Origin: Myxococcales bacterium
GTDB taxonomy: Bacteria > Myxococcota_A > Polyangia > Haliangiales > Haliangiaceae
NCBI GenBank assembly: GCA_016794525.1
Contig: JAEUJY010000175.1
Location: forward strand, 1-39,718
Reading direction: 5' to 3'
DNA length: 39,718 nt
Every line of letters starts with the position of its first letter. The stretch's first letter is position 1. Of the stretch, positions 34,742 to 36,896 are shown in pieces. The position numbers and the translations under genes are program-made. The notes below the pieces were generated by a model that did no database searches, was not told where the DNA came from, and saw only the letters and a program-made list of their open reading frames with translations.

Positions 34742-36046
34742 ATGTTGCGCCGGACCGCCTCGCTCGCGCTGGTCGTCACCGCCTGGGCCGTCACCTGCGC
34801 CGCGGGCTGCGCGACCGACGACCTGGTCGACGACCCGGCCGATGACGCGTGGCTGGACGGCAAGGCCGACGGCGCGACGGCGGTCGACCTGGCGGCCATC
34901 GACCTCGACGTCGACCTGAGCGACCTCGACGCCACGGCCACCATCGCGCTCGAGAAGAACGGCAACGTGGCGCTCGAGGTCGGCGGGCTGACCATCGACG
35001 ACGTGGTCGACGGCCGCGGCCACCGCCGGTACAAGCTGGTCGGCGGGCAGCTGCGAGTCGCCAACGTCCGTGGCCCGCTGGTCGTGCGCTACCGCTTCAG
35101 CACGCACGCGATGGCCGACGGCCTCTTGCCAGGCGGCTCGACCGTGGTCTGGCCGTACTTCTGCGGCAACCTGTTCCCTTGCCACTCGCGCCCCGCCGAT
35201 GGCGTGCGCTTCGCGCTGCACCTCGACGGCGTGCCCGCGGGCAAGCAAGCGATCTATCCACCGACGATCGACAGCGACGCGCCACCGTACATGATCGCCT
35301 GGGCCGTCGGCAGCTACACCCGCACCGAGCTGGGCACGACCACTGCGGGCACGAAGGTCGCGGTCTACTCGCTGCCCGGCGGGCTGACCGCGGCACGCAC
35401 CGGCACCAAGCACCTGCGGGCGGTGTTCGACTGGTACGAGCGCGTGCTCGGACCGTACGCGTTCGGCAAGGACGTCGCGTCGGTGTCGGTCGTGTGGGGC
35501 GAGGGACTGTACGGCGGCATGGAGCACCACCCGTACTGGCACGTCGCCAAGGACGCGATGGCCGACGAGGTCACCCACGCCCACGAGGCCGCCCATGGCT
35601 GGTTCGGCGACGGCGTGCGGCTGAAGTGCTGGGAAGACTTCGTGCTCTCGGAGGGCACCGTCAGCTACCTCGCGGCGCGTGCGCTGGCGGTCACCGGCGG
35701 CGCGACCCTCGAGCGGCAGGTGTGGGCCGAGTACCAGCGCGAGCTCGACGACGCCATCGCCACCGGCGGTGCGCCGGCGTGGCCGACGGGCTGCAACCAG
35801 ATCGACATCATCCGCGACGACCTGTTCACCAACCTGCCGTACATGCAGGGCGCGTTCTTCTACAAGGACGTCGCCGCGGCGGTGGGCGTGGATGCGCTCG
35901 ACGGCGTGATCGGACGCTTCTACCGCGCGCACAAGAACCAGCCCGCGTCGATGCAAGAGATGATCGACGCCATCAAGCGGGACACCGGCTTTGATCCCAC
36001 GCCGATCGCGAACGCTCGCCTGCGCGCACGGTTTGGGCCGCGCTGA
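34742..36046 (+). CDS. M1-family-like metallopeptidase lipoprotein (gluzincin)
   Basis: A 434-residue secreted protein. MLRRTASLALVVTAWAVTC leads to AAGC (Cys23), probably lipidated, then an acidic linker. The catalytic core shows GGMEHH (counterpart of the aminopeptidase GxMEN motif, with Asn replaced by His) and the zinc site HEAAHGWFGDG: His281, Glu282, His285, with the third ligand Glu304 in VLSEGTVSYLA exactly 18 residues later. This is the HExxH-x18-E arrangement of M1 peptidases. At 434 residues it lacks the C-terminal helical domain of full aminopeptidases. It should be an envelope or extracellular peptidase. ATG 34742 is chosen because it begins the signal peptide; an in-frame start 12 codons earlier adds nothing. 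Confidence 0.87.
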   Translation: MLRRTASLALVVTAWAVTCAAGCATDDLVDDPADDAWLDGKADGATAVDLAAIDLDVDLSDLDATATIALEKNGNVALEVGGLTIDDVVDGRGHRRYKLVGGQLRVANVRGPLVVRYRFSTHAMADGLLPGGSTVVWPYFCGNLFPCHSRPADGVRFALHLDGVPAGKQAIYPPTIDSDAPPYMIAWAVGSYTRTELGTTTAGTKVAVYSLPGGLTAARTGTKHLRAVFDWYERVLGPYAFGKDVASVSVVWGEGLYGGMEHHPYWHVAKDAMADEVTHAHEAAHGWFGDGVRLKCWEDFVLSEGTVSYLAARALAVTGGATLERQVWAEYQRELDDAIATGGAPAWPTGCNQIDIIRDDLFTNLPYMQGAFFYKDVAAAVGVDALDGVIGRFYRAHKNQPASMQEMIDAIKRDTGFDPTPIANARLRARFGPR

Positions 36047-36064: not shown

Positions 36065-36076
36065 TCCCACGTGGGA
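36065..36076. repeat. isolated copy of the 12-bp palindrome TCCCACGTGGGA
   Basis: One perfect copy of the array's palindrome, 69 bases upstream of the first tandem unit and without the array spacer. It shows the palindrome kept on its own. Confidence 0.85.
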
Positions 36077-36133
36077 TATCCCGGGCGGATCCGTCGGGCA
36101 GGTTTCCACCTCGCGCGAGACGCGTTGGCCGTA

Positions 36134-36419
36134 TCCCACGTGGGACGCCCCGCGATCTCCCACGTGGGACGCCCCGCGATCTCCCACGTGGGACGGCCCG
36201 CGACCTTCCACGTGGGACGCCCCGCGATCTCCACGTTGGACGTCCGCAATCTCCCCCGTGGGGCGGCCCGCGATCTCCCACGTGGGACGGCCCGAAATCT
36301 CCCACGTGGGACGCCCCGCGATCTCCCACGTGGGACGCCCCGCGATCTCCCACGTGGGACGCCCCGCGATCTCCCACGTGGAACGCCCCGCGATCTCCCA
36401 CGTGGGACATTCCCTGGCC
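36134..36419. repeat. tandem array of 12 units of about 24 bp, most carrying the palindrome TCCCACGTGGGA
   Basis: Units begin at 36134, 36158, 36182, 36206, 36230, 36252, 36276, 36300, 36324, 36348, 36372 and 36396. Each is a 12-bp palindrome (centre CACGTG) plus a spacer of CGCCCCGCGATC type. Eight units have a perfect palindrome. Unit 5 is 22 bp with two deletions. Unit 6 reads TCCCCCGTGGGG. Units 4 and 11 have one change each. Unit 12 keeps the palindrome but has lost the spacer. The whole 36047-36458 region holds no convincing gene. The period is a multiple of three and has no stop in any frame, so long false reading frames run through it. Confidence 0.95.
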
Positions 36420-36458: not shown

Positions 36459-36896
36459 ATGCGGATCAAGCGGATCATGCTCGCCACCGACTTCTCCACC
36501 CAAGCGCGGCACGCCCTCGACTACGCGGTCGAGCTGTCCGCGCGATTGCACGCGCCGCTGCTGATGGTGTCGGCGTTCCAGATCCCGATGTACCCGTTGC
36601 CGGAAGGCGCATTCGTTGCGGGCGGGCCGGCGATCGCCGAGATCCTCGACCGCGTGAGCAGCGACCTGGCGGCCGAGAAGAAGCTCGCCATCGAGAAGGG
36701 CGCGCAGGGGGTCGAGTCCCTGGTCGTGGAAGGTGCGCCAGCAAACGAGATCGTGCGGGTGGCAAAGGAGCATCACGTCGACCTCATCGTGATCGGCTCC
36801 CACGGGCGTGGCGGCCTGTCCCGCGCCATCCTCGGCTCGGTCGCCGACCGCGTGATGCGTACGGCGCATTGCCCGGTGATGGTCGTCGCGCACTAG
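36459..36896 (+). CDS. universal stress protein (UspA family, ATP-binding type)
   Basis: A 145-residue single-domain Usp. It starts MRIKRIMLATDFSTQARHAL, the usual first strand with the 'ATDFS' turn, and carries the ATP-binding signature GSHGRGGLSRAILGS (G-x2-G-x9-G-S) near the C-terminus, followed by RTAHCPVMVV. The ATP-binding form is therefore expected. The frame is open upstream through the palindrome array, but that part is non-coding; ATG 36459 matches the family start. The array ends 40 bases before this ATG, so the gene is the most likely target of any protein bound there. Confidence 0.92.
   Translation: MRIKRIMLATDFSTQARHALDYAVELSARLHAPLLMVSAFQIPMYPLPEGAFVAGGPAIAEILDRVSSDLAAEKKLAIEKGAQGVESLVVEGAPANEIVRVAKEHHVDLIVIGSHGRGGLSRAILGSVADRVMRTAHCPVMVVAH

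Follow-up and report, generated by a model that had tools for sequence, protein, structure and literature searches.

Between a gene for an M1-family peptidase and uspA, a contig of a Myxococcales bacterium carries a run of short CACGTG-centered palindromes, which raises the question of whether these palindromes serve uspA or belong to something that extends across the genome. The window that we analyzed covers positions 1 to 39,718 of contig JAEUJY010000175.1. The features of interest are as follows.

34742 to 36046, plus strand: M1-family peptidase gene (PF01433); the array sits past its 3' end, and the gene is context, outside the proposed system.
36065 to 36076, no strand: lone exact palindrome TCCCACGTGGGA, 18 bp past the peptidase stop codon.
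36134 to 36408, no strand: tandem array of 12 palindrome units with a 24-bp step and the unit consensus TCCCACGTGGGACGCCCCGCGATC.
36459 to 36896, plus strand: uspA, universal stress protein (PF00582), also context; its ATG is at 36459, 51 bp after the array.

There are 13 palindrome units at 36065 to 36408, 9 of them exact copies of TCCCACGTGGGA. The sequence-only reading had described 13 copies, 12 in tandem at 24 bp and 1 isolated; the counts held, but the uniform step did not, since a degenerate unit near 36229 is 2 bp short. TRF reported a period of 24, 11.5 copies, and a score of 445. Twelve units lay within two mismatches of TCCCACGTGGGA, compared with a mean of 2.4 in shuffled sequences, of which 0 of 100 reached 12; chance does not explain the unit count. 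Six units also share an extended core, with ATC on one side of TCCCACGTGGGA and CG on the other. No relative that we examined had uspA behind the peptidase gene, and none had a palindrome array there.

The sequence-only reading had called for a genome-wide search, and this search changed the picture. The 9.8-Mb genome (G000; 177 contigs) holds 348 exact copies of TCCCACGTGGGA versus 0 copies of the reversed control, and each of six congeners has 0 or 1 copy. Approximately 311 of the 348 copies fall in ~38 intergenic arrays of roughly 4 to 27 units (counts that rest on fetched regions, 40 of which were used for the arrays; 334 of the 348 copies were placed). Each array has its own spacer and its own period (24, 25, 26, 28, 33 to 37, 40 to 41, 45, 50 to 52, and up to ~95 bp); many of these periods are not divisible by three, which means that the arrays are noncoding. 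Palindromes are rarely spaced less than 23 bp apart, with a peak at 24 to 26 bp. What all arrays have in common is the palindrome with a weak asymmetric extension, the AT being found in 24 and the CG in 28 of 37 arrays, and this extended core seems to be mixed in its orientation with respect to transcription. In this genome and in two relatives (G008 and G019), many contigs break off within a palindrome array or an HNH gene, and short-read assembly has therefore probably led to underestimated copy numbers. No palindrome pairs at array spacing were found in 29 other genomes of the family, a scan of 84,980 GTDB species that left out the source genome returned no comparable clusters beyond 8 sporadic stretches, and no array was found in IMG/VR viral sequences. 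Searching the literature for the 12-mer returned a single, unrelated hit.

We then have to consider which part of these arrays is conserved. In the window array taken alone, the better preservation of the palindrome that the sequence-only reading had described is not significant, with 6 of 144 palindrome sites and 9 of 132 spacer sites changed (Fisher P = 0.43). Over 25 regular arrays, it is borne out and the palindrome emerges as the conserved element: it was changed at 133 of 3,408 positions (3.9%) versus 521 of 4,060 (12.8%) for the spacer (P = 5e-45), a 3.3-fold difference overall, and it was the less diverged part in 24 of the 25 arrays. Divergence was taken from a wrap-around alignment in which units were not picked by the palindrome, and the single array of the 25 that lies in an HNH gene (L046) does not drive the result. 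The placement of the arrays is likewise not random. With gene neighbors taken from a simple codon-model gene caller, arrays with both neighbors known were in 12 convergent, 15 tandem, and 1 divergent contexts, compared with 9 convergent, 54 tandem, and 46 divergent contexts for background intergenic regions of at least 100 bp (shortage of divergent contexts, P = 4e-5). In tandem contexts, the array was closer to the upstream stop codon in 14 of 15 cases; median distances were 34 bp to the stop and 105 bp to the start. The 67 neighboring proteins showed no functional theme.

The copies that lie outside intergenic arrays proved to be rare and informative, since 374 kb of the genome's own sequence outside arrays held no copy within one mismatch. 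Among the placed copies, 22 are in HNH genes and 1 is near parS. The latter lies in the intergenic parS cluster (L220:5891-7272; G000:C79:125.9-127.3k), which has six parS sites versus 2 to 3 in congeners and also holds the one-mismatch copies TTCCACGTGGGA and ACCCACGTGGGA. The copies in HNH genes are in frame, encode Ser-His-Val-Gly, and belong to a multicopy gene family (on contigs C6, C7, C20, C21, C50, C64, C122, C127, C134, C158, C174, and C175). They are found mainly at two sites, the middle linker and the tail right after "HADGRPYGxPP," and most carry the ATC or CG flanks seen in arrays. The genome has 36 matches to this HNH family, the highest number among 30 genomes of the family, and its copies form a single clade on the HNH tree; G003 and G005 have no HNH gene of this kind. 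The HNH domain (PF01844) scores above its cutoff (27 versus 21.4 bits) and is the only Pfam match; the N-terminal region has no assigned family, and solved structures match only weakly, in most cases through an HNH domain. In all of the genome's own copies that we read (L284, L307, L278, L279, L281 to L283, L046, L074, L241, L048, and L049), the HNH asparagine is replaced by K, T, W, R, or G, while most relatives keep it; this loss may impair cutting. We rejected the idea that loss of Asn is linked to the TCCC-type palindrome (the source genome, G019, and G009), given that HNH genes with TCCCACGTGGGA in G008 and G029 keep it. No HNH gene was found in the fetched flanks of intergenic arrays, which reached up to about 6 kb; any spread must accordingly be old or operate in trans.

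The association between HNH genes and palindromes extends to other genomes, where HNH loci were chosen by protein match and not by palindrome. A CACGTG-centered palindrome of at least 12 bp was present at 15 of 28 HNH loci versus 1 of 29 M1-peptidase loci from genomes of the same family (P = 2e-5), and in 7 of 271 random 4-kb windows. Two or more copies of one palindrome were present at 10 of the 28 HNH loci versus 1 of the 29 control loci. The remaining 13 HNH loci lacked a CACGTG palindrome of at least 12 bp, and 3 of these had another repeated palindrome core. G006 offers an unbiased case: across a 389-kb sample, 2 of the 4 CACGTG-centered palindromes of at least 14 bp lie in the only HNH gene there. 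We regard the association between the HNH gene and the palindrome as well supported. Measured from the HNH His pair, palindromes of different genera fall into the same intervals (about −927 to −846, −332 to −282, and +174 to +309 nt), which correspond to shared linker positions at the ORF start, in the middle linker, and in the tail after the HNH domain; in the G015 gene, the tail contains four units, most of them spaced at 24 bp. The outer bases differ: GCC in G001, G002, G004, G007, G012, and G020; ACC in G004 and G008; GTC in G029; GGC in G013; and TCC in G009 and G019. Cognate palindromes include GCGCCCACGTGGGCGC (G007), TACCCACGTGGGTA (G008), CGCCCACGTGGGCG (G001), and GGCCCACGTGGGCC (G020), and repeated palindromes at HNH loci include TACCCAGCTGGGTA in G017 and CGTTTCCGCGGAAACG in G028. 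On the HNH tree, the palindrome type is common to close relatives and differs between lineages. Exact TCCCACGTGGGA is itself present in a neighboring genus, g2, where a class-wide count gave 15 copies in G008, 9 each in G007 and G019, and 4 in G020; of 29 fetched loci with TCCCACGTGGGA copies from genomes other than the source, 5 hold an HNH gene, and some of the G008 and G019 copies lie at HNH genes. At three G007 loci (L259, L260, and L262), arrays with wide spacing were seen in which TCCCACGTGGGA and variants alternate with another palindrome, GATTCCGCGGAATC.

Taken together, these data lead us to favor, by a modest degree over even chances, the view that the window array is a member of a genome-wide family of palindromic repeats associated with an HNH nuclease, following a logic like that of RAYT/REP systems but with an unrelated enzyme. 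Against this view count the lack of HNH genes in the fetched flanks of intergenic arrays, the lost HNH asparagine of the genome's own copies, and the 13 HNH loci elsewhere that have no CACGTG palindrome of at least 12 bp. The sequences suggest that the HNH gene and its palindrome are linked and turn over as a pair, and that in this genome the palindrome has spread into arrays. In the mechanism that we propose, the HNH protein, which consists of the unassigned N-terminal region and the HNH domain, would bind as a probable dimer to the palindrome cognate to it, and cleavage or nicking followed by repair would spread the palindrome. Local expansion would then produce tandem arrays, with adjoining DNA taken up as spacer. 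Recognition would be limited to intact palindromes, and the palindrome would for that reason stay fixed while spacers drift. Arrays would survive mainly behind stop codons because they do the least harm there, leaving promoters and genes unbroken. It is a more tentative suggestion, to which we give somewhat less than even weight, that these genes represent an undescribed selfish class, i.e., HNH nucleases that carry their cognate palindrome in the coding sequence and disperse tandem arrays, with specificities coevolving by lineage.

Several other explanations must be weighed against the HNH-associated repeat family. The sequence-only reading had proposed a multisite operator or enhancer for uspA, and the uspA start only 51 bp past the array is what speaks for it. 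That proposal did not survive: with ~38 arrays tied to 3' ends, avoiding divergent promoter regions, and beside neighbors without a common function, and with the peptidase-uspA order absent from the relatives examined, we consider a role as a uspA control site highly improbable. The data suggest instead that this array is no uspA switch but one of the genome's resident repeat loci. ParB/parS-like centromere or nucleoid-occlusion sites are almost as improbable. The parS core is CACGTG, and one exact and two near copies of the palindrome lie within about 1.4 kb at the parS cluster, but the genome has a single ParB, as do the congeners where one was found, the ParB recognition region is alike in the sequences read, and six canonical parS sites are already present in one cluster. 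The sequence-only reading had also held that many similar arrays scattered with no gene association would point to a neutral minisatellite. Such arrays were indeed found, and unit numbers vary, adjacent units are identical, and arrays stand at the ends of many contigs, all as expected of slippage with the palindrome as a mere seed. Nevertheless, this is not the best answer and we judge it improbable, because a single palindrome is common to all arrays, is better preserved than the spacers, and has a link to HNH nuclease genes; nonrandom placement also counts against it. Degenerate hexamer-type minisatellites (CTCGGY or CCGGAG repeats) were common in the samples from G003, G006, and the source genome.

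The two remaining alternatives assign the palindrome a function in the host. In one, adjacent self-complementary units form 12-bp stems in 3' untranslated RNA and act as a terminator or stabilizer. The argument that a loopless palindrome suits a DNA-binding protein better than an RNA hairpin had overlooked this pairing between neighboring units; its conclusion still stands, in that sequence-specific reading of DNA fits best. Array RNA folds far better than shuffled sequences (z = −7.4) and the arrays lie at 3' ends, but good folding is expected of any palindrome array, structure alone needs no identical sequence across ~38 arrays, and single changes show no clear strand bias toward G-U compatibility (17 versus 12). 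Moreover, no U-tract terminator was found at the window array and no Rfam family matched, and we regard an RNA-level role as unlikely. In the other, the arrays are clusters of sites for a host DNA-binding protein (architectural, a roadblock terminator, or an insulator at gene 3' ends), and the HNH copies are secondary. We give this explanation a minor but real chance of being correct. Purifying-like conservation restricted to the palindrome, placement past stop codons and often between convergent genes, a spacing such as a protein footprint would give, and the mixed orientation of the extended core all agree with it. However, we found no candidate protein, the congeners lack the palindrome sites, and both the in-frame palindromes in HNH genes and the lineage-specific HNH palindromes elsewhere are left unexplained.

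The HNH-associated repeat family most resembles the RAYT/REP systems (REPtron, BIME, and REPIN), in which a nuclease gene is bordered by short palindromes and cognate copies are dispersed (PMC2817692, PMC3733652). In both cases, palindromes occur in excess at the nuclease gene and are lineage specific, the dispersed cognates are clustered with linkers in intergenic regions and favor convergent or tandem contexts, palindromicity is kept despite base changes, and nuclease and palindrome appear to covary. By analogy, the HNH nuclease would bind or cut its cognate palindrome. The differences are also clear: the enzyme here is HNH, whereas RAYT is an HUH/Y1 tyrosine transposase; the palindrome is 12 bp, loopless, and without a GTAG/CGTC tag, whereas REP is an imperfect hairpin of 20 to 40 nt with a tag; copies are in frame inside the nuclease gene; and the arrays are direct tandem rather than alternating. 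A strict RAYT/REP system was rejected, as the palindrome was absent within about 1 kb of the genome's own Y1_Tnp genes (0 of 17 loci, with one two-mismatch site). These Y1_Tnp (IS200-like) genes form an expanded family (L199 to L215), most copies of which are alike and apparently edged by long repeats that match in both orientations.

STAR elements of Staphylococcus are likewise lineage restricted and occupy dozens of intergenic loci, where a short conserved motif is repeated with spacers private to each locus (PMC3532100). The same arrangement of motif and spacers is found here, but the arrays do not fit the STAR consensus T(G/A/T)TGTTG(G/T)GGCCC(C/A), their motif is a perfect palindrome, there are ~4 times more copies, the arrays are longer, and a nuclease partner is found. 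HNH homing endonucleases and REP13E12/DUF222-HNH repeats (mentioned in PMC10589994) share the presence of multicopy HNH genes in one genome; here, no intron or intein context was seen and DUF222 was unmatched (PF01844 only), and the cited literature describes no palindromic arrays for these genes. Sites of parS are likewise clustered CACGTG-centered palindromes but have the sequence TGTTYCACGTGRAACA, bound by ParB; the arrays lack the parS outer bases, and ordinary parS and ParB are present separately in the genome. Overall, the HNH-repeat reading did better than the ParB/parS, RAYT, RNA-hairpin, and plain-minisatellite readings.

The genome also holds a second lineage-specific array family, GACGATC-GGATGGG-GATCGTC, with a 7-bp stem, a conserved 7-nt loop, and locus-specific spacers. 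Its pattern has 49 matches in this genome versus 1 to 7, with unrelated loops, in congeners (sites: L172:11707-12217 [G000:C48], C37:66.5-71.2k, C39:63k, C79:37.8k/113k/166k, C86:54.6k, C89:21.1k, C113:109.8k, and C162:9.3-10.2k). This family was not found at HNH genes, and no partner gene was found for it.

Many bacteria carry short palindromic repeats, and the enzyme family that the cited literature connects with such repeats is that of the RAYT transposases (PMC2817692, PMC3733652). A second, unrelated nuclease family with lineage-specific palindromes would, if confirmed, point to more than one origin of nuclease-plus-palindrome repeats. Such a family would also provide HNH proteins whose recognition sites are readable from their own genes, and the origin of STAR-like arrays with a conserved core and private spacers would become testable.
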